The notes beneath the pieces are model-generated. The model was not told the origin of the DNA and did not search any database. It saw only the letters and a list, made by a program, of their open reading frames with translations. DNA of 64,000 bases from the NCBI GenBank assembly GCA_021772055.1, contig JAETNR010000015.1:1-64000 (forward strand). The letters are read 5' to 3'. Positions 171 to 46,847 of this stretch are shown here, piece after piece; position 1 is the first letter of the stretch, and every line of letters begins with the position of its first letter. The position numbers were made by a program, and so were the translations under genes. The DNA is from Blautia sp. GTDB taxonomy: Bacteria; Bacillota; Clostridia; Lachnospirales; Lachnospiraceae.

Positions 171-1514
171 TTATGCAGCCCGATATATGAAATATCGTGG
201 TTTCCGGAAATGAGCTGTTTGAAGCCTTGGGTATTGGCGGTCATTTCGGATAGGGATCAATTCTCTTTGCAGTAGAGACATCACATCATATTGGTCTTTC
301 TCCGTGGTCAGACGGAGAAAGACTCTGCAGATATGTGCAGCCATTGTAAAATTGACTTTATACTCATGTTTTGTGTCATGTGTTTCCAGTACCGTACAGT
401 TTATCATGGTTTCCGTTATGTTATAGGCAATGAGTTTTGCCCATATCTCCTGTTCGATATACTGTGGTTTATAGGAATGAAAATTGCTCAGTCCTATCGT
501 GTATTTTAGCTTTCTAAAAGAAGATTCGATTCCCCATCTGGCATAGTACAGCGCTTTGATACGTTCCGGCGGAAACTCATCACGTGGCAGATTCGTAATG
601 ATGCATTCATAGGTTGACTCGCTGAGAGGAAATCTTATAATCCGAAATGCAAGTTCATAGGTGTCATAACTGCCAAAAGCGATGTAATCAAAAGTAGATA
701 CCTGATCCACAAAGCGTTTGTAAGTGCCAGGATTGGTCAGGACTTTTCTTGAATGGCTCCGGACCAGGGTAACCTGGACATCGATATCAAAAGATTCTTC
801 TTCCGGAAAGTCGAAATTGCCAACTAAGCCTTTGGAGTGGATATCTTTGGTACGGAACAGAAAGAACTGATTTTGTTCCATCACATGTGCCATGTTGTTG
901 TAAGAACAATAGCCACGGTCACCAATATAGACGTTCTTTCTTCCTTCGAGAACCTCATGGCGGTCAACCATGTCACAGAAAGCGCCAAATTCATTTTTGC
1001 AATGGACAGGCTGGATCAGGGCATCCGTATAGGTGTGTGTTGTAAGGTCATAAAAAGCATTCAAATGCATGCTGTAGACCCCTCTGATGGAATTTCCGGG
1101 TGAGCAATAATAGTCAGCTGATGAGAAAGATGGTGTACTGAAATAAGTGCAGGTCGAACCGTCGGCAGCCAGAAAGCGGTATTTGTCATCGTTAAAAGTA
1201 CTTGGGAGCAATCCCATGGCAGATGAATTAAAATGTTTGAACACAGCTTCCAAGGCAGCCGGTTTCAGCTTTTGACGCTGCTGGTTAAGAGCGGAAGAAG
1301 TAGGCATGGAAGAATCGTCCAATCCCCAAAAGTCAAGCATTTCAACTTTGGTGGAGGAAGAGCCCTGTGAAACGAGAAAAGAAATAAGTTTTTGAGATGA
1401 GATCTTTCGATTCCTTTGAAAATCAATATCCGGATGAATGGAATAATCCGAAATATCAGAACAAATATGTTCTACAGATGACTCAAACAGATCTTTGATT
1501 TTTTGATGGATCAT
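171..1514 (-). CDS. IS4-family DDE transposase
   Basis: A 447-residue transposase that would cut and rejoin the ends of its insertion sequence. The three acidic positions of the DDE site are visible: Asp in the LAADGST segment (about residue 117), Asp in YIGDRGY (about 198), and Glu in the YYARWGIESSFRKLKY segment near residue 330, which matches the IS4 Y-(2)-R-(3)-E-(6)-K signature. Length fits the family and no internal stop or frameshift is seen, so the protein looks intact. A ribosome site (AAGGAGGCAC) precedes the ATG. Terminal inverted repeats could not be identified, so the element's limits are unknown. It lies just downstream of the IS66-type copy in the same orientation. Confidence 0.9.
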   Translation of the reverse strand: MIHQKIKDLFESSVEHICSDISDYSIHPDIDFQRNRKISSQKLISFLVSQGSSSTKVEMLDFWGLDDSSMPTSSALNQQRQKLKPAALEAVFKHFNSSAMGLLPSTFNDDKYRFLAADGSTCTYFSTPSFSSADYYCSPGNSIRGVYSMHLNAFYDLTTHTYTDALIQPVHCKNEFGAFCDMVDRHEVLEGRKNVYIGDRGYCSYNNMAHVMEQNQFFLFRTKDIHSKGLVGNFDFPEEESFDIDVQVTLVRSHSRKVLTNPGTYKRFVDQVSTFDYIAFGSYDTYELAFRIIRFPLSESTYECIITNLPRDEFPPERIKALYYARWGIESSFRKLKYTIGLSNFHSYKPQYIEQEIWAKLIAYNITETMINCTVLETHDTKHEYKVNFTMAAHICRVFLRLTTEKDQYDVMSLLQRELIPIRNDRQYPRLQTAHFRKPRYFIYRAA

Positions 1515-1557
1515 AATGGTGTGCCTCCTTGAAAAAGTGATATATCGCTAATTCAAG

Positions 1558-1602
1558 GGCCGCTCTCGTTACCTCTAAAAACAATCAGTAACGAGAGCGG
1601 CC
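1558..1602. terminator. Strong hairpin between the two transposase genes
   Basis: A perfect 15-bp inverted repeat (1558-1572 with 1588-1602, arms GGCCGCTCTCGTTAC) around a 15-nt loop. It lies between the stop of the IS66-type transposase and the start of the IS4-type transposase. It could block read-through into the IS4 gene or mark an element end. There is no long U tract, so a classical intrinsic terminator is not proven. Confidence 0.6.
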
Positions 1603-1623
1603 GCACATTCTGGTGTGTTTGTC

Positions 1624-1646
1624 AACCATTTTTATAAAAAATGGTT
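1624..1646. repeat. AT-rich hairpin just past the IS66 transposase stop
   Basis: Perfect 10-bp inverted repeat AACCATTTTT (1624-1633) / AAAAATGGTT (1637-1646) with a 3-nt loop. A further AACCATTTT copy lies at 1667. In the leftward direction the stem is A/U rich. It may be a terminator or part of the IS66 end. Confidence 0.45.
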
Positions 1647-1653
1647 AGACCCC

Positions 1654-3183
1654 TTATTGGAAATCTAACCATTTTAGATATACGACGCTAACTAAATGAC
1701 ATTGGCGACAAGTTTCGATATATGTTCGGTTGAGTGCATGGTTATCAGCGGCGGCTTCCGATTCAAACTGACCTGATATTTTCATGTGGGACTTAACGCC
1801 TCGAAGTCCGCGCTCGCTGAGATTGTTGGTGGTCGGCAAGCTGAAGTCCTCTACCCAAAGGAAATAGTTCCTGCGATATTTGGCAATACGGTTAAGCAGG
1901 GTCTGTTCAAATGATGCTCCGTAGTTGCCTGGATCAGCTTCGTTTTCCTTCCAGCCGTTTTCAAGGTATTCATCTACCTTACGATGGAACTCGTTAACGT
2001 AGGCTTCGCTGAAAGATTCTTCTCCCCGGGCTATGGAATCATTGCGGTCCTTAATGGTTGTGCTGATATGTTCCTTCAAATCATCCGACCATTGATGGCA
2101 GGTATCATCTGTATTCTTCTGGCAGTCACGCTGAAGATGCTGATTACATTCAATGTTTTCAAAGCTGTACTTGTCGTTATAGTTTACGGTGTTATGGTCA
2201 TGCATGGTCTTTGTATCAGATGTCAGGAGGTTCAGAACATTGTCATCATCAAGGCTCTCCATGTCCTTATGAGCATGCGCTGTATAGTAAGCAATGGATT
2301 CATCTCCGTAGAACCGGAAACATGCTCTCTCCGCAAGAATGAAGATGACAGTATCGTCCCAGTAAACAATCTTTCTTGTGATCAGGGCAAGCTTTAGATC
2401 CTCACGGAACTGGCGGAGCCCTTTTGCGGCACGTGCCTGGAGCTTTGCAATGTATCCCTCACAGGGAGTTAATTCACCGCCGGTAATTCCGGCAAGAAAC
2501 ATGGATGCTTTGTTCATGGCGGCGTTAACTGTGTTTGTGAGGGATAAAGCAAAAGCCTGCAATCCACTGCCATACTGAACCTTCTCCTTAAGGCTCGGAG
2601 GTATCTGCGAACGGAACACTGTACCGCAGTTCTTGCATTCATAATAAAAGAATTCGTGTTTGATCTTAACAACTTTGATGCGCACATCGTATTCGTATTT
2701 TACCTCGGATTCTCCGGTTGGAATGCAGTCAGTAAGTCCGCACCTGGGGCAGCATTCATCATCCTGCAATGGATGCCCGACAGTATCTGTGATTTCGGAT
2801 TCATCCGGTGCCTCAAGGGAGGCTTTTGTATGGCCGGTCTGTCCTCCCTTGGGTTTTCCTGTATTGCGGCGAGAGTTTGGGATAACCTTGTTTTTATTTA
2901 TCGGTGTCTGTGATGTGGGAGTACCGGTATTACTGCCATCGTGATTAAGAAGAGCCTCTGCGTGAGCAAGGCGGTTCTGTAACTCCTTGATAATGGCATC
3001 TTTTTCAGCAAGCGATTCCGTATATTGTTTTTTGTCGGACTCTTTAGACCGCCTAAGGTTTCTGACCGAAGTCTGCAGAGAAACGATCTGTTCCTGATAC
3101 CCCAGGATGCGGTCCTTCAGTTTTGTGATTTCCTCAGTTGCCTTTTCAAAGTCGAGGCGCAGATTGCCAGTAAATTTGATCAT
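1654..3183 (-). CDS. IS66-family transposase (TnpC-like)
   Basis: About 509 residues. The N-terminal third is a coiled coil (residues 10-75) followed by a basic stretch with a GGQTGH motif typical of IS66 transposases. Next comes a zinc-binding stretch (CCPRCGLTDC, later YECKNCG) and then the catalytic core, with YWDDT near residue 290 and the C-terminal NNLSERGLRGVK block. I chose the ATG at 3183 because it overlaps the TGA of the upstream small gene as ATGA, indicating translational coupling; the upstream extension is out of keeping with the family start. The copy is intact. The usual TnpA/TnpB partners of IS66 are replaced by one small protein. Confidence 0.88.
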   Translation of the reverse strand: MIKFTGNLRLDFEKATEEITKLKDRILGYQEQIVSLQTSVRNLRRSKESDKKQYTESLAEKDAIIKELQNRLAHAEALLNHDGSNTGTPTSQTPINKNKVIPNSRRNTGKPKGGQTGHTKASLEAPDESEITDTVGHPLQDDECCPRCGLTDCIPTGESEVKYEYDVRIKVVKIKHEFFYYECKNCGTVFRSQIPPSLKEKVQYGSGLQAFALSLTNTVNAAMNKASMFLAGITGGELTPCEGYIAKLQARAAKGLRQFREDLKLALITRKIVYWDDTVIFILAERACFRFYGDESIAYYTAHAHKDMESLDDDNVLNLLTSDTKTMHDHNTVNYNDKYSFENIECNQHLQRDCQKNTDDTCHQWSDDLKEHISTTIKDRNDSIARGEESFSEAYVNEFHRKVDEYLENGWKENEADPGNYGASFEQTLLNRIAKYRRNYFLWVEDFSLPTTNNLSERGLRGVKSHMKISGQFESEAAADNHALNRTYIETCRQCHLVSVVYLKWLDFQ

Positions 3184-3557
3184 AGGACACAGGGAGCCTT
3201 TCCTAAAGCATTGGAGATGGACGCACATACTTTTTCGTACGATCTGATGGTGGCTTTTAAGGCCTTCACTTCAGACTGTAGAGAAGCGATTTCGGCTTCT
3301 TTCTCGGATATGGTTTTTTGGAGATTAGTGATCTTAGCTGAGGTAGTACCTTCTTCTGTGGCGGTTACATTTTTAGAAGATGATGTTCTGCCCCGACGAC
3401 CGGAGGAAGGAATAAGTTCTCCTGTTTCAGGATCGAGTGTACCCAGATATTTTCTCTTGGGTCTCGATTGTTTGGTGACAGGATCATAGTGGGGAGTAGA
3501 CTCGTAAACACGGGTCTTTCCGGTTTTCTTGTCGTAGTGTTGAACGATGGTCGGCAT
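3180..3557 (-). CDS. Small IS66-associated protein
   Basis: 125 residues beginning MPTIVQHYDKKTGKTRVYE. The N-terminal half resembles the short segment found at the start of IS1634-type transposases and in small proteins upstream of some Firmicutes IS66 copies. The C-terminal half (residues 65-115) is a predicted coiled coil, like the N-terminus of the adjacent transposase, which suggests the two may pair. The ATG at 3557 is preceded by AAAGGAG at 8-nt spacing. The stop overlaps the transposase start (ATGA). Its biochemical role is not known to me. Confidence 0.7.
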   Translation of the reverse strand: MPTIVQHYDKKTGKTRVYESTPHYDPVTKQSRPKRKYLGTLDPETGELIPSSGRRGRTSSSKNVTATEEGTTSAKITNLQKTISEKEAEIASLQSEVKALKATIRSYEKVCASISNALGKAPCVL

Positions 3558-35081: not shown

Positions 35082-36098
35082 CTACTCTCCATCTACAACT
35101 ACAGCATCCGCTCCCTGGACAGTCACCCATCCATGCTCCTGCCGTGCTTTCGCCAGCTCCATATCAATCAGCTCCTGTGTGATAGACTGGCTTAATTCTT
35201 TATTTGCTTCTGCCTGGGCGTTTGCCTGTATCTTAGTGGCTTCTGCATTAGCTTCTGCCGCAATCTTCTTTGACTTCGCTTCCCCTTCTGACTTTTTGAC
35301 CTTCGCATCAGCTTCTGCCTTTGCCTGTTCCACAGCCTTTTTATTCTCAATCTGCTGTCTTTCATAGGCCAACTGCGCATTCTGTTTCTCGGCGATGGAG
35401 GCGTTATAGCTCTCATCAAAATCAGCACTTGCAATCACAACCTTATTAACGATGATTGTCCCTTCCCCGTATTTCCCGTCAAGGGATCTCTGGATATTCT
35501 GCATGGACAAAGGCTCTATTTTCCCTCTGTTAGTCGCATCAATATCCGACAGAGCCTTACTGCTTTCTTTGAGCGCTGATGCTACCAACGGCTGTGATAT
35601 TAACCTGATGTCGTAATTTTGGACATTTGCGTATATCCAGGCAGATTTTTCTCTGGCGATCTGATATGTAACTGTGATTCCGTCATAATAGATAGCCGTC
35701 CGGTCAGCTGTCTCACTCCAAATCTGCCCATCAAAGGTAATGTCTTGCTGTTTGTTATTGACTTTCTTGATGCTCTCAACAAGCGGAATCTTAAAATTCA
35801 TTCCATTGGGCATGGTCTTTTCAGATACTTGTCCAAACTTAATCCTTACTCCGGTGTAGCCACTGGGGATTACGGTAATACTGGATGAGATCAGGATGAC
35901 CAGAAATCCAGCAAGTATTAGCAGAATGCTTTTCTTTGGAGTCTTCGGTGCAACTGGTGCGTCAATCTCCAACCCACCGCGTTTCTTTCTCTCATACATT
36001 TCCAGTTCATCCGCATATTTGATTTTTGCCATGACCACCACTACAATTCCTGCGGCGATCAATAAGATTCCTAAGATTGTAAAAATAATGTTTAACAT
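35082..36098 (-). CDS. SPFH/band 7 membrane protein
   Basis: 338 residues. Two hydrophobic spans (residues 3-26 and 58-80), then the SPFH domain (IPSGYTGVRIKFGQVSEKTM, with YYDGITVTYQIAREKSAWIY) and a long Ala/Glu/Lys coiled coil (250-315) typical of prohibitin- and flotillin-like proteins. Such proteins oligomerise on the membrane. In a phage early operon it may alter the membrane or anchor replication; this is inference. Confidence 0.85.
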   Translation of the reverse strand: MLNIIFTILGILLIAAGIVVVVMAKIKYADELEMYERKKRGGLEIDAPVAPKTPKKSILLILAGFLVILISSSITVIPSGYTGVRIKFGQVSEKTMPNGMNFKIPLVESIKKVNNKQQDITFDGQIWSETADRTAIYYDGITVTYQIAREKSAWIYANVQNYDIRLISQPLVASALKESSKALSDIDATNRGKIEPLSMQNIQRSLDGKYGEGTIIVNKVVIASADFDESYNASIAEKQNAQLAYERQQIENKKAVEQAKAEADAKVKKSEGEAKSKKIAAEANAEATKIQANAQAEANKELSQSITQELIDMELAKARQEHGWVTVQGADAVVVDGE

Positions 36099-41178: not shown

Positions 41179-41331
41179 TCATACTGATATATCGCTGAAT
41201 ACTCTTCGTCCCATATTTGCCAATGTATTTTTTAGTTTCTCAATTTGGTTTTGTACTTCCACGATTAAGCCAAGAGTGTTCTCCTTGTCTACTTTCACAG
41301 ACAAATACATTCTATCTTCATGTTCCCACAT
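41179..41331 (-). CDS. Small helical phage protein
   Basis: 50 residues: MWEHEDRMYLSVKVDKENTL, an EVQNQIEKLKNTL helix. GGGGTG lies upstream. It is divergently arranged with cassette A and about 130 nt from its gene. Not recognised. Confidence 0.6.
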   Translation of the reverse strand: MWEHEDRMYLSVKVDKENTLGLIVEVQNQIEKLKNTLANMGRRVFSDISV

Positions 41332-41385
41332 ATTTTTCACCCCGCTTTCTGTTTATGAAAGAAAGTGTATTTTACTCACCTTCGG

Positions 41386-41443
41386 TTGATTTAGTGTTTA
41401 ATATCTCCTATAATTAAAGTACAGGCACTGCCATGCCGAGTAC
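41386..41443 (+). promoter_or_regulatory. Cassette A promoter and leader hairpin
   Basis: TTGATT (41386-41391), 17-nt spacer, TATAAT (41409-41414), then 4 nt and the element GTACAGG...CCGAGTAC (41419-41443). In the RNA it folds as GUAC / A bulge / GGCA-CUGCCA-UGCC / GA / GUAC. It is followed by AAAGGAG and the start of a DUF2513-like gene. Same design as cassettes B and C. Confidence 0.75.
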
Positions 41444-41464
41444 TGAAGAAAAAGGAGCAATCTT

Positions 41465-41872
41465 ATGAAACTTAGTCTGAGTTGTATTCGCGATACCCTT
41501 GTTACTCTCGAGGATTGGCTTATACTAAATAACAACCTAGAGTTCATATCCCTTAGTTTGGATGAAATTTGCAAATCGTCCGAAATGCTAAAACATTCCA
41601 AATCAGATATCGCTTATACTCTTGTAATATTAAATGAAGCAGGATTTATAGAAGCTATAATTGATTATGGCGACTTCAATTGCATCTGCGAATTGGAGGT
41701 TATACGTCTCACGTATTCCGGTCATCAATTCATTGATGCCATACGTCCGCAAGCAACATGGGATAAAATTTATGATGTTGCTGAAAAAACTGGGTTAAAA
41801 TCAGTTTCTGCCATAATGAAAATAGCAGATGCCTTGCTTCCAGAAACCATAAAACATGCGCTTCATCCCTAA
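41465..41872 (+). CDS. DUF2513-like phage protein (cassette A)
   Basis: 135 residues. MKLSLSCIRDTLVTLEDWLI, ITYTLVIL-like strand, YSGHQFIDAIRPQATWDKI and the end AIMKIADALLPETIKHAL follow the DUF2513 pattern, a winged-helix-like phage family of unknown function. It is transcribed against the early operon from a cassette promoter with a leader hairpin. Converges with the small gene at 41889-42077. Confidence 0.8.
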   Translation: MKLSLSCIRDTLVTLEDWLILNNNLEFISLSLDEICKSSEMLKHSKSDIAYTLVILNEAGFIEAIIDYGDFNCICELEVIRLTYSGHQFIDAIRPQATWDKIYDVAEKTGLKSVSAIMKIADALLPETIKHALHP

Positions 41873-41888
41873 GCCCACGCGGAGTCTA

Positions 41889-42077
41889 TTAGATTTCTGG
41901 TGGACTCCCGCAAAAAACTGCGGTTTTCATATATTTTTGTATCCCTGCGTCATTGCTCTCATTCACAGTTTTCTCAAAAATGTTTGCAATTGATTTAGCG
42001 TCTACAGGAGAAACTTTTCTTTTATTCAGTACATCAATTAATTCTTCCACAACTTCTATCATTTGATTTCTGTTCAT
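41889..42077 (-). CDS. Small helical phage protein
   Basis: 62 residues starting MNRNQMIEVVEELIDVLNKR. TGGGGTGAGATAA precedes the ATG. Converges with cassette A. No family recognised. Confidence 0.55.
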   Translation of the reverse strand: MNRNQMIEVVEELIDVLNKRKVSPVDAKSIANIFEKTVNESNDAGIQKYMKTAVFCGSPPEI

Positions 42078-42267
42078 TTATCTCACCCCACTTTTTCTCC
42101 GAGTCAACTTCCTGTGCTTCTTTCATGATGCTCATTCCCTCGGCTACGCCAAGAAGTCGTTCCTTCTTTGCGTCTGGAAGATCAGATACGATATCTGAAA
42201 GTCTTTCTATAATCTGTTTTTTCTTTTTCTGACATTTTTTCACCTCCAAATATGATAGTATTGACAT
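42034..42267 (-). pseudogene. Frameshifted paralogue of the 49-residue gene at 43572
   Basis: From ATG 42232 (GGAGGTG upstream) the first codons read MSEKEK as in the paralogue at 43572-43721, but one extra nucleotide in the A run then shifts the frame (MSEKEKTDYRKTFRYRI stop). The other frame continues QIIERLSDIVSDLPDAKKERL and LLGVAEGMSIMKEAQE, nearly identical to the paralogue. A product in one piece would need the unsupported start at 42267. I treat it as a broken duplicate unless a frameshift rescues it. Confidence 0.6.
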
Positions 42268-42319
42268 TTTGGCTCTCTACTCCTATTCTTGAGTTACAGG
42301 TTTTACCAAAACCGAGTTT
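42261..42319 (+). promoter_or_regulatory. Cassette C promoter and leader hairpin
   Basis: TTGACA (42261-42266), 17-nt spacer, TATTCT (42284-42289), 4 nt, then TTACAGG (42294-42300). The stem is GGTTTT (42299-42304) with AAAACC (42308-42313) around ACC, followed by GA and GT. It shares the ACAGG...CCGAGT flanks and the internal A/GA bulge with copies A and B, but the stem sequence differs (GGTTTT/AAAACC in place of GGCA/TGCC), keeping pairing. Confidence 0.65.
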
Positions 42320-42339
42320 ATAGAAAGGAGTATAAAATA

Positions 42340-42546
42340 TTGGTTGATAAAGAAATAGTTAAGGACACTATTATCGAAGCTACTAACGATATTCATTTCG
42401 AAACAGTTGCCAGCTTGTCTAAAGATGAATTTATCGAAGTATTATCTTCTGCAATTTCAGGTGTGATGAACAGTTCAGCATTTTCTGAAAGCGTATCGGA
42501 AGATATGGCGTCCCGTTCTGTCCGTAGAAGTCGTGGTAGGTTATAG
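42340..42546 (+). CDS. Small cassette C protein
   Basis: 68 residues from TTG 42340 (AAAGGAG 9 nt upstream). It starts MVDKEIVKDTIIEATNDIHF and ends in a basic tail (SRSVRRSRGRL). A mostly helical protein of unknown role. The same frame is open further upstream, but the leader would then be translated and no better site is present. Confidence 0.6.
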   Translation: MVDKEIVKDTIIEATNDIHFETVASLSKDEFIEVLSSAISGVMNSSAFSESVSEDMASRSVRRSRGRL

Positions 42547-42612
42547 TTTCAACTTCTGCCATATCGCTACCGAGGATTCCTTTTTTTAAGTTGAACCTAG
42601 GTAGCTGGCTTC

Positions 42613-42780
42613 TTATTTCTCTGCATCAGCATCTTCCAATACTTCCTTGCTTTTTCCTGCAAGCTCATGTCTAACGCTCTCTGTTTCCACAAGAAGATTC
42701 CTCGCCAGCCTTTCTATCTCATCTAGCTTTCCAAGGACGCTCTCTCTGTCAACGTCGATTTCAATTCTCATTGTTCTCAT
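42613..42780 (-). CDS. Small charged helical phage protein
   Basis: 55 residues: MRTMRIEIDVDRESVLGKLD, ELAGKSKEVLEDADAEK. GTGAGGTG lies upstream of the ATG. Downstream partner of the KilAC gene (5 nt between them). Function unknown. Confidence 0.55.
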   Translation of the reverse strand: MRTMRIEIDVDRESVLGKLDEIERLARNLLVETESVRHELAGKSKEVLEDADAEK

Positions 42781-42785
42781 TTGTT

Positions 42786-43565
42786 TCACCTCACTTTCTC
42801 TTCTAGCAAAAACTTATTAATAAAATACTGTTGTCCCTTTCCAGTAACCTTCGTTGTTCGGTTGATTCTTACAGAACCATCTGGATTATTAACAGTGGAT
42901 TCTTTTACTTCAAACAATCCCTGTTCCATAGCCCTCTGTGTTGGCATATTTCTGTCTGCACCATTGCGCTTAATCAGGTATCCGTTTTCACGCATCCATT
43001 CAAACAGCCTCTTTTGCCCTGTCTCGATTCCGTTCTGCCTAATAATCTTCGCAAGGTCTCCAATCAGGATGGATGTACGACTGGTTGATACGGCATCTGC
43101 GAAAATCTCTTTTGGCTTCATGCGCTTCACATCTTCCTGAAGAAGTTTGTTCTTTTCACGTTCTTCTTTCAGTGCGGTGAATGCCTTGATTGCCATGTCT
43201 GGATTATTCAGAAGGTCATCCACAGCATACATGCCGTGCTTTCGGATAGAAGGAAGAACTTCTGATGTTACCCAGTGCTTGAACTTCTTTGCGGATTCAA
43301 GTTTGCTGGAAAGAATCAGGCTGTATAGACCGGATTCGTTGATAAGAGCTGTCTGTGTTTTTACCACATTCCCGTTTTGGGAATCTGCTTCTAATGTCTT
43401 TAAAATACGGTCTTCTTCGTTTACATGCGTGGAAACTGCTTTGCTTGCATTTGAGTATCCAAGTGCAACCGCCACATCTTTTCCAACAAACCAAGGCTCA
43501 TTATCAATAGTTACTGTTCGGATTTCGCCGAATTCTTCATTGCTGAAGATCTGTAAATCACTCAA
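42786..43565 (-). CDS. KilAC/BRO-type phage antirepressor
   Basis: 259 residues. BRO-N domain (MSDLQIFSNEEFGEIRTVTI, then WFVGKDVAVALGYSNASKAV, HWVTSEVLPSIRKHG) at residues 1-110, then a KilAC-type C-terminal domain (LIGDLAKIIRQNG, RLFEWMRENGYLIKRNG). Antirepressors of this kind inactivate phage repressors. It is part of the leftward operon that starts opposite the XRE repressor. Confidence 0.88.
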   Translation of the reverse strand: MSDLQIFSNEEFGEIRTVTIDNEPWFVGKDVAVALGYSNASKAVSTHVNEEDRILKTLEADSQNGNVVKTQTALINESGLYSLILSSKLESAKKFKHWVTSEVLPSIRKHGMYAVDDLLNNPDMAIKAFTALKEEREKNKLLQEDVKRMKPKEIFADAVSTSRTSILIGDLAKIIRQNGIETGQKRLFEWMRENGYLIKRNGADRNMPTQRAMEQGLFEVKESTVNNPDGSVRINRTTKVTGKGQQYFINKFLLEEKVR

Positions 43566-43571
43566 TTCACA

Positions 43572-43721
43572 TCATCCTTTCTTACTAGAATCATTTTCCT
43601 GTGCTTCTTTCATGATACTCATTCCTTCTGCTACACCGAGAAGTCTTTCTTTCTTGGTATCAGGCAGACCGGAGACGATATCTGAAAGTTTTTCCATAAT
43701 CTTCTTTTCTTTTTCTGACAT
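43572..43721 (-). CDS. Small MSEKEK protein
   Basis: 49 residues: MSEKEKKIMEKLSDIVSGLP, KERLLGVAEGMSIMKEAQ. AAGGAAGTGT lies upstream. A broken paralogue is at 42034-42267. The sequence is helical; similar short proteins occur in Clostridia prophages upstream of antirepressor genes. Function unknown. Confidence 0.6.
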   Translation of the reverse strand: MSEKEKKIMEKLSDIVSGLPDTKKERLLGVAEGMSIMKEAQENDSSKKG

Positions 43722-43740
43722 TGTTACACTTCCTTTCTGG

Positions 43741-43797
43741 TTGATTTAATGATTGATGTCTCCTATAATCTATGTACAGGCACTGCCATGCCGAGTA
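43741..43797 (+). promoter_or_regulatory. Cassette B promoter and leader hairpin
   Basis: TTGATT (43741-43746), 17-nt spacer, TATAAT (43764-43769), 4 nt, then GTACAGG...CCGAGTA (43774-43797): GUAC, A, GGCA-CUGCCA-UGCC, GA, GUA. The run from the -35 to the element is almost identical to cassette A. It leads into a 52-residue gene. Confidence 0.75.
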
Positions 43798-43816
43798 ATA
43801 TGAAAGGAGAATACAT

Positions 43817-43975
43817 ATGGATAGAACATCTTTTAACAAAGATTTAGATGAAATCCTTGACACTCTTGAATCTGCTGGAACTTTAGAAAATTTAAAATTC
43901 ACAAAAGACCAAGCAAGATTCATAAATCTCTTGATTTCATTGGCTATTGAAAAATATGACAAAGAGAACAAATAG
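43817..43975 (+). CDS. Small cassette B protein
   Basis: 52 residues: MDRTSFNKDLDEILDTLESA, helical and acidic, ending IEKYDKENK. AAAGGAG 8 nt before the ATG. Transcribed from cassette B against the early operon. Not recognised. Confidence 0.6.
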   Translation: MDRTSFNKDLDEILDTLESAGTLENLKFTKDQARFINLLISLAIEKYDKENK

Positions 43976-44284: not shown

Positions 44285-44659
44285 GTGAATTCATATGGCG
44301 AAAGAATTTCAGAATTAATTACTAAATTAGGAATTACTAAAACAGCATTTGCAGATAAATTGAATATTACTCAACCATACGTTAGTAAATTAATAAAGAA
44401 TGGAACGCCAAGCGACAGACTTATTGAGGATATATGTGAGAAATTCAACGTAAACGAAAAATGGCTACGAACTGGAGAAGAAGAAATGTTCCGCCCATTA
44501 AACAGAAATGACGAGATAGCAAAACTCACGTCAGACCTATTCAAAGGTGAAAAAAATTCATTCAAAGAGCGTTTGATTCTTGCTCTTGCCGGACTGGATG
44601 AAAGCGAATGGGAAATGCTTGAGAAGATTGCAGAAAAAATTGCAAAAGAAAAGGACTGA
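44285..44659 (+). CDS. XRE-family phage repressor
   Basis: 124 residues from GTG 44285 (GGGAGGTGATAAA upstream). Helix-turn-helix at residues 18-55 (ITKTAFADKLNITQPYVSKL), then an IEDICEKFNVNEKWLRTG linker and an acidic helical C-terminus (LAGLDESEWEMLEKIAEKI). It lacks the LexA-like peptidase domain that gives self-cleavage in many phage repressors. It faces the leftward early operon across four operators, the arrangement of a CI-type repressor. Confidence 0.85.
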   Translation: MNSYGERISELITKLGITKTAFADKLNITQPYVSKLIKNGTPSDRLIEDICEKFNVNEKWLRTGEEEMFRPLNRNDEIAKLTSDLFKGEKNSFKERLILALAGLDESEWEMLEKIAEKIAKEKD

Positions 44660-46564: not shown

Positions 46565-46713
46565 TTTTTCACAAGAATCTATGGGAAGACAGGGGGCAAA
46601 TTGGGGGCAGAAAATCTGAAAGCCTTCGAATCGAAAAAAATGCGAAAGCGCCGAAACCCAAGTAAAATCAAGGGTTTTGAACGCTCTCGCATTCTCTTAA
46701 GTTCCTTAATGGA
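46565..46713. other. Probable attachment region between integrase and tRNA-Leu
   Basis: 149 nt with the direct repeat GGGGGCAAA/GGGGGCAG (46592-46609) typical of the sequence after integrase genes in such phages, and the hairpin listed separately. The attachment core should lie here or in the tRNA 3' end. No second copy of the tRNA 3' sequence was found near the left end of the prophage. Confidence 0.45.
46632..46693 (-). terminator. Terminator of the tRNA-Leu transcript
   Basis: AATGCGAGAGCG/AATGCGAAAGCG arms (46639-46650 with 46682-46693, one mismatch) plus an inner AAACCC/GGGTTT stem; the leftward RNA ends in TTTTTTT (complement of 46634-46640). Confidence 0.6.
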
Positions 46714-46798
46714 TGCGGAAGATGGGACTTGAACCCACACGAGCGCAATGCTCACAAGATCCTTAGTCTTGCTCGTCTGCCAGTTCCGACACTTCCGC
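46714..46798 (-). tRNA. tRNA-Leu (anticodon AAG)
   Basis: 85 nt without encoded CCA. The acceptor stem is GCGGAAG/CTTCCGC, and the anticodon stem CAAGA/TCTTG encloses the loop CTAAGGA, so the anticodon is AAG. A long variable arm (GAGC...GCTC) and the TPsiC sequence GGGTTCAAGTCCC confirm a class II leucine tRNA. Confidence 0.9.
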
Positions 46799-46847
46799 AT
46801 ATCGCATTTCCCGGGATGTTTTCTTTTGTTCCCTCGCGACAAGTGAT

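Follow-up and report, generated by a model that had tools for sequence, protein, structure and literature searches.

Phage morons are autonomous small accessory genes that carry their own promoter, lie between conserved phage genes and often run against the surrounding operon; to our knowledge, the classical morons share no RNA leader. Here we examine a 64,000-nucleotide (nt) stretch of a Blautia sp. genome (GCA_021772055.1, contig JAETNR010000015.1, positions 1 to 64,000; hereafter the window), in which a promoter followed by a short leader hairpin occurs three times between positions 41386 and 43797, each time in front of a different small gene (copies A, C and B in map order, Table 1). The leader, an RNA element common in gut phages, belongs to a family that lies outside Rfam 15 and outside the papers searched. 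Like morons, the genes behind it are small single genes of unassigned or defensive function that have their own promoter and run against the operon. Unlike morons, they have one structured leader and a dedicated promoter box in common across unrelated genes in unrelated phages, and an obvious terminator follows only 19 of 148 of them, compared with 32 of 781 other genes. With a promoter of their own and an orientation independent of their neighbours, the leader genes would, judging from sequence, class as morons.

Several RNA elements invite comparison as well. The 5′ stem-loop operators of phage coat proteins and TRAP are short hairpins with bulged purines near a ribosome-binding site, and the leader resembles them in this, but it has no (G/U)AG repeat run and its hairpin does not overlap the start codon. 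The transcript of ompA is one case of a 5′ stabilising stem-loop. Stabilisation of this kind is given as a general effect in the consulted part of PMC3997798, whose reference list has papA and B. subtilis aprE as titles; as far as those titles go, a hairpin at the 5′ end is the shared feature (for aprE, together with ribosome binding), and these are one-gene cases, whereas the leader is a family with conserved bulge, loop and spacing. The consulted part of PMC12691694 describes the LoaP/dfn system, where a small 5′-leader hairpin of UNCG type is recognised in Bacillota ahead of a terminator and a giant operon. The leader is also a small 5′-leader RNA hairpin in Bacillota, but it differs from dfn as described there in its mostly YGCC/YGCA-type loops, the Shine-Dalgarno directly after it and the small genes it precedes. 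Finally, the putRNA of phage HK022, going by the part of PMC9378689 consulted, is about 70 nt long with two stem-loops and serves early phage genes; both are phage cis RNAs at a transcript start, but the leader is a single hairpin of mostly 23–25 nt.

Structure of the leader and its relatives

A preliminary description of this DNA had reported, in all three copies, a −35 box, a 17-nt spacer, a −10 box, 4 nt and an element running from (G/T)TACAGG to CCGAGT, then AAAGGAG and a start codon. Re-reading the sequence found every part in place: 4 nt after the −10 box, the element begins as GTACAGG at 41419 in A, TTACAGG at 42294 in C and GTACAGG at 43774 in B, and CCGAGT ends it at 41441, 42317 and 43796, respectively, with AAAGGAG (in A as AAAAAGGAG) and the start codon (ATG at 41465, TTG at 42340, ATG at 43817) on the 3′ side. 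The pattern TACAGG-N6..26-CCGAGT occurs 3 times in the window, compared with a mean of 0.02 over 100 shuffles, none of which reached 3. Each leader folded alone was unremarkable (z −1.51, −0.61 and −0.91), so the three copies by themselves say little about RNA and that evidence has to come from relatives.

Relatives were gathered by pattern scans of viral contigs, in which TACAGG, CCGAGT and the Shine-Dalgarno were fixed and whose counts are lower bounds, and by a scan of one genome per species, in which the promoter was fixed. A covariance search of the kind proposed in the preliminary description was run with a model, R1, built from 83 distinct elements (alignment A2, in which the letters TACAGG, CCGAGT and the Shine-Dalgarno are invariant by construction), and it found further copies with paired covariation. 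A 170-copy cassette alignment demanded three stem pairs; in a set with no stem filter, 179 of 252 TACAGG..CCGAGT places among the matches listed had a −10 box at the right position. This unfiltered count, the model-found set and a Shine-Dalgarno count on unselected copies were made to lessen selection effects. From whole genomes the model found 51 copies, 36 of them new and 15 in loci of the first set. Real and false model matches were told apart by eye from promoter and gene context. Eight hits lacking promoter and gene (L285, L286, L287, L303, L262, L263, L267 and L273; seven distinct, as L285 is like L286) were set aside, and the doubtful L264 is included in the 51-copy pair count and excluded from the Shine-Dalgarno and 16S-tail counts. 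Many viral hits of the first scan were chance matches with neither promoter nor stem.

In A2, 95.6% of cells are paired compared with 81.0 after shuffling, 97 cells are altered on both sides compared with 28.0, and the covariation score is 0.363 compared with 0.080, the best slide giving 0.091. The hairpin is a single stem-loop, and its tetraloop, mostly of YGCC/YGCA type, is closed by a C·A or U·G wobble. Core length was 14 or 16 nt in 162 of the 179 promoter-bearing copies, as if whole pairs had been gained or lost, and cores without a −10 box were scattered in length (among the matches listed, as are the following pair counts). In the 80 cores of 14 nt, pairs 3 and 4 were Watson-Crick in 78 and 78, G-U in 2 and 2 and anything else in none; in the 82 cores of 16 nt, pairs 3, 4 and 5 were Watson-Crick in 75, 78 and 77, G-U in 3, 2 and 3 and other in 4, 2 and 2, and counting distinct cores only (28 of 14 nt and 48 of 16 nt) gave similar figures. 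The loop-closing pair (n = 162) was C·A in 113, U·G in 30, G·G in 7, A·G, C-G and C·C in 3 each, and U-A, A·A and U·C in 1 each. Since C·A and U·G wobbles are isosteric, for the most part one pair here replaces another of like geometry, an exchange that is meaningless in DNA. Among the 51 model-found copies, each of the two basal stem pairs was G-C in 46, A-U in 1, G-U in 3 and A·C in 1, the bulged A was present in all 51 and the bulge on the 3′ side read GA in 42 and AA in 9. Stem formation is predicted with a mean probability of 0.83 (145 leaders).

The compensated stem pairs, the tolerance of G-U and the C·A/U·G swap argue for RNA rather than for a DNA operator, a reading that the preliminary description had kept as its alternative. 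An imperfect palindrome bound by a repressor at the start site would suit an element that is partly palindromic and overlaps the probable start of transcription. Its arms, however, carry different bulges (A versus GA), phages with few genes in common still share it, and what we found is not symmetry free of RNA-specific pairs, so an operator is very improbable. The pairs that covary in relatives are what a structured cis-acting 5′ leader should have, and both the RNA reading and the compensatory stem change claimed from the three copies now stand on at least 179 promoter-bearing copies, 51 model-found ones and the pair counts in A2.

Promoter and ribosome-binding site

The full cassette consists of a −35 box, a CTCC box, a −10 box, five bases, UACA-hairpin-GAGUA, usually 5–6 bases, GAAAGGAG and the start codon. 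The 170 aligned copies have TTG at −34 to −32, a T-rich stretch, TCTCC at −16 to −12, TATAMT at −11 to −6 and KTA at −5 to −3, and in nearly all of them TATAMT ends six positions before the T of TACA. Given this spacing, and since a transcript usually starts 7 nt after the −10 box, the messenger RNA (mRNA) would likely begin at the A of TACA or within a base or two of it.

The CTCC promoter box is nearly specific to leader genes. When TTG-16-CTCCTATANT was sought, the leader followed 83 times and was absent 5 times (reversed loci give 4); of the five leaderless cases, inspected by eye, one was ended by the contig end and three looked like broken or variant leaders. In two loci, L302 and L309, an extended −10 promoter type was seen by eye instead, with the leader kept, and since the leader stands behind differing promoters it is a unit of its own. 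Upstream of all four leaders of L302 there is a conserved element close to TGGAATATTTTGTAATATTGTG with an extended −10, replacing the −35 and CTCC boxes.

The base of the hairpin lies 8–10 nt from the Shine-Dalgarno in 122 of 141 copies, with both stem lengths and in scans that permitted 2–24 or 2–12, so that the hairpin keeps a constant position immediately 5′ to the ribosome-binding site. In copies not selected for it, the extended Shine-Dalgarno GAAAGGAG was present in 27 of 38 from the one-genome-per-species scan (29 of 38 have GGAG) and in 32 of 50 found by the model, compared with GAAA before GGAG in 80 of 715 other GGAG-bearing genes of these phages. This Shine-Dalgarno is the complement of the 16S ribosomal RNA (rRNA) tail CCTCCTTTCT, which was read in 7 of 9 relatives searched; the tail pattern had no match in the draft assembly of the host itself. 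Complementarity to the tail of at least 8 nt was seen for 34 of 50 leader genes and 192 of 1003 others.

Driven genes, phages and the prophage of the window

The 173 frames downstream of leaders, including the doubtful L126, L128 and L129, form 99 BLAST clusters; for 15 further elements the frame was unclear. The start codon is ATG in 153 of 159 and the median length is 73.5 amino acids (154 complete frames). Pfam, PHROGs and PADLOC gave matches for few of the 96 representatives, among them DUF2513, KTSC, DUF2321, DUF2188, DUF1883, zinc ribbons, a TIR effector and PDC candidates. Iterated profiles joined 123 of 190 proteins into families of four or more, with E-values (expectation values) that are optimistic in a database of 190 proteins. 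No long operon here requires antitermination, which bears on another alternative, a nascent-RNA element that acts on RNA polymerase in the manner of put and gives resistance to pausing or termination. Such an element would explain the position at the very 5′ end and the occurrence in many phages with no need of a dedicated trans factor, but with the two stem-loops of put replaced by one short hairpin we consider it improbable.

By the calls of a simple open reading frame finder of our own, both neighbours lie on the opposite strand for 130 of 168 driven genes compared with 243 of 2059 other genes, and both on the same strand for 3 of 168 compared with 1147 of 2059. These 168 come from 221 elements in partly redundant loci; counting distinct proteins only, 118 of 156 have opposite-strand genes on both sides. 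Deposited annotations agree on orientation in all four phages compared (phiRgPS_6, RG-TP1, Montmirail and ANDSL2_ph1), and in L302 early genes on the opposite strand separate four successive leader genes, the third having been missed by this finder. In two of these records the annotation itself can be compared with the leader: in the Blautia phage Montmirail, a second leader (L403:4112-4134) precedes a + strand start where only − strand genes are annotated, and in RG-TP1 an annotated start codon falls inside a leader (L405:3531).

The same leader on 99 clusters of genes, and the successive cassettes on alternate strands in L302, are also what one would see if promoter and leader were a shared end for the swapping of accessory genes, with little function of their own. 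We give this little credence, since compensatory stem change and fixed spacings require selection for an RNA and not homology alone. Of 14 loci with a DUF2513 gene, two had the leader, each from the family to which the host belongs, and in the other loci it was absent within the locus, so the leader tracks the phage pool and not the protein. Scans with single proteins gave few relatives, and the leader was present in 2 of 3, 1 of 6 and 3 of 3 of the loci hit; some of these hits fall on the contig of the query itself or on nearly identical contigs.

In the one-genome-per-species scan, 32 of 37 stretches are Lachnospiraceae by record title, including some genera that we take to belong to that family, and the other five are titled Eubacteriales, Clostridia, Eubacteriaceae, Eubacterium and 'uncultured bacterium'. 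With R1, matches were found in 16 of 60 genomes of the same genus at E ≤ 1 (own included; one of them a CRISPR spacer, with false matches among the weakest), in 25 of 392 of the order at E ≤ 0.05 (own included; at least one false, G042 and G046 uninspected), in 7 of 391 of a class sample at E ≤ 0.02 (own included; of the four outside the order only G778, with two copies, looks real) and in 3 of 299 of a phylum sample, namely the own genome and two apparently real cases. In the host assembly of 4.64 Mb, the window's three copies were the only model matches at E ≤ 5. Of 39 IMG/VR phage contigs picked for having the leader (32–69 kb), 28 had one copy, eight two and three three. Isolated phages of Ruminococcus gnavus, Blautia and Acetoanaerobium carry it, and four further R. 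gnavus phage records match it by BLAST. This distribution points to a leader family widespread in unrelated phages of gut bacteria as a shared control signal; the earlier scope of three genes in one lysogeny module was an underestimate.

Two model hits are spacers of clustered regularly interspaced short palindromic repeats (CRISPR) arrays, L294:4095-4128 (23 repeats listed) and L261:1344-1376 (17 repeats). The L261 spacer, from a genome of the same genus, matches copy B of the window (43767-43799) in 31 of 33 nt, more closely than any other place compared, and the L294 spacer matches its best phage copies in 29 of 34. In four of the eight best distinct copies for the latter, the GAA of GAAAGGAG follows directly, which is TTC on the other strand, and TTC is the type I-C motif. 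No exact protospacer of either spacer was found in the viral contigs. Type I-C arrays are reported in R. gnavus in the part of PMC10072058 consulted.

Searching the window with the covariance models of Rfam 15 (4227 families) at gathering score matched a transfer RNA (tRNA) only. Relaxing E to 5 over 41300-43900 brought up no more than two hits below their cut-offs, an S15 leader scoring 20.2 bits (cut-off 39.5) and sR60 scoring 15.3 bits (cut-off 50). The literature searched did not describe the leader; PMC8040213, of which the consulted part catalogues 3161 gut RNA candidates, may list it in its tables, which lie outside this comparison.

The window holds a prophage, with tape measure, capsid, portal and terminase-like frames named by reading of the sequences and an antirepressor, XRE repressor and integrase matched by Pfam or PHROG. 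Its early genes are on the − strand and genes A, C and B stand between them on the + strand, like the repressor and integrase, so the opposition of these three genes to the early operon is as first described. Iterated profiles grouped gene B with small proteins behind other leaders, which in a database of 190 proteins is weak evidence. Two related small genes, both with weak phrog_24426 matches (42034-42267 and 43572-43721, − strand), lie divergently upstream of leaders C and B, which suggests a duplicated cassette. A tRNA-Leu(AAG) at 46710-46799 adjoins the integrase gene and is plausible as the attachment site; no second copy of this region was found within the window. Elsewhere, a frame in the early region (35082-36098) appears from reading to resemble a prohibitin/SPFH membrane protein, and two frames at the left end (171-3228) read as transposase-like.

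Table 1. Positions of the three leader cassettes and neighbouring regulatory genes in the window
Feature	Position	Strand	Details	Basis
Promoter A	41386-41414	+	TTGATT 41386-41391, 17 nt, TATAAT 41409-41414; CTCC box 41405-41408	Sequence; box kept in relatives
Leader hairpin A	41420-41442	+	UAC A (GGCA CUGCCA UGCC) GA GUA	Covariance model match, 34.8 bits
Shine-Dalgarno A	41450-41457	+	AAAAGGAG	Sequence
Gene A	41465-41872	+	135 amino acids; DUF2513 (PF10711), phrog_585; ATG at 41465	Pfam/PHROG
Promoter C	42261-42289	+	TTGACA 42261-42266, 17 nt, TATTCT 42284-42289; CTCC box 42280-42283	Sequence
Leader hairpin C	42295-42318	+	UAC A (GGUUUU ACC AAAACC) GA GUU	Covariance model match, 26.1 bits
Extended Shine-Dalgarno C	42323-42330	+	GAAAGGAG	Sequence
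Gene C	42340-42546	+	68 amino acids; TTG start at 42340; family search without match	Pfam/PHROG
BRO-N/KilAC antirepressor	42786-43565	−	Opposing early operon	Pfam/PHROG
Promoter B	43741-43769	+	TTGATT 43741-43746, 17 nt, TATAAT 43764-43769; CTCC box 43760-43763	Sequence
Leader hairpin B	43775-43797	+	Identical to hairpin A	Covariance model match, 31.9 bits
Extended Shine-Dalgarno B	43802-43809	+	GAAAGGAG	Sequence
Gene B	43817-43975	+	52 amino acids; ATG at 43817; no Pfam or PHROG match	Pfam/PHROG
XRE/CI-like repressor	44285-44659	+		Pfam/PHROG

What may read the leader

We tentatively read the element, with a probability of roughly 45%, as the 5′-terminal leader of moron-like accessory genes that are expressed in lysogeny, acting on translation and mRNA lifetime. 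Each element would be the 5′-terminal RNA leader of a single-gene transcription unit, its fold capping the 5′ end of the mRNA beside the binding site of the ribosome. This fold would be read by conserved machinery of the host, either the ribosome or a factor for RNA binding or decay, and the short mRNAs would thereby escape degradation and go on being translated in the lysogen. The leader genes, moron-like and some of them probably for phage defence, would be expressed while the opposing lytic operon is silent, and would be shut down once the other strand is transcribed in the lytic cycle.

The preliminary description had placed the element in trans to a shared regulator, and this part of its claim stays conjectural, as a cis role fits the data equally. 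Across 20 phage records, of which 19 were covered to at least 86% of their length and one to 56%, the only near-universal gene family is the ordinary XRE repressor type, present in 19; the next, a REP-like family, RNase H and an unnamed one, reach 15, 14 and 13, and one representative of each of these three had no match in the window. Such a regulator, whether a host or a common phage protein, would bind the hairpin by the Shine-Dalgarno and repress or activate translation of all leader genes jointly, as a post-transcriptional regulon. We hold this to be a serious possibility, if one that we rank slightly behind the cis reading. The unpaired positions (the bulged A, the GA or AA across from it and the loop types) are kept while the stems vary, the distance to the Shine-Dalgarno is fixed and the promoter box is a dedicated one. 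The 22 Pfam families matched by the 96 representatives include no CI-like helix-turn-helix or integrase, and there is one 'DNA binding protein' among 25 of the 35 PHROG families listed. Against it, no candidate was found in those records and the own genome has no further leader copy at E ≤ 5. Because the leader belongs to the phage pool of a host group, host machinery is favoured as its reader, with the ribosome, decay enzymes or an RNA-binding protein as candidates.

It is important to note that several observations weigh against a leader acting only through translation and stability. A pure stabiliser would not need conserved unpaired bases, and it would not explain why the leader was seen with none of the core lysogeny genes. 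The outer pairs UAC/GUA are near-invariant, compensated once in 51 copies, and may therefore be read as sequence; a scan of the viral contigs for the compensated outer helix TGCA..GAGCA gave 14 places, in none of which a promoter and a stem occurred together. The predicted openness of the Shine-Dalgarno is only moderate (mean 0.49 unpaired, 136 leaders), and with terminators behind so few of the driven genes the single-gene transcript is something we infer. The near-specific CTCC box suggests a transcription-level factor, which the cis reading does not contain. Additionally, the few copies from other families or in phyla-wide host samples must come from phage transfer or assembly contamination or else imply a widely conserved reader.

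Since the leader is independent of protein family, it offers a way to locate accessory genes of prophages, which for the most part are unannotated, and those within its reach include candidate defence genes (the TIR effector and PDC models among the 96 representatives). It is carried by isolated phages that are open to study, phiRgPS_6 of Ruminococcus gnavus and Montmirail of Blautia coccoides. A bolder and rather doubtful idea is that of a phage-wide post-transcriptional regulon, in which unrelated temperate phages of Lachnospiraceae and other Clostridia would address one conserved cellular RNA reader via a 30-nt leader, so that genes for superinfection and defence are made only in the lysogen. 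If that were true, the leader would be distinctive enough for host CRISPR spacers and would serve as a tag for hundreds of prophage accessory genes, and it raises the question of which cellular factor so many unrelated phages may address in common.

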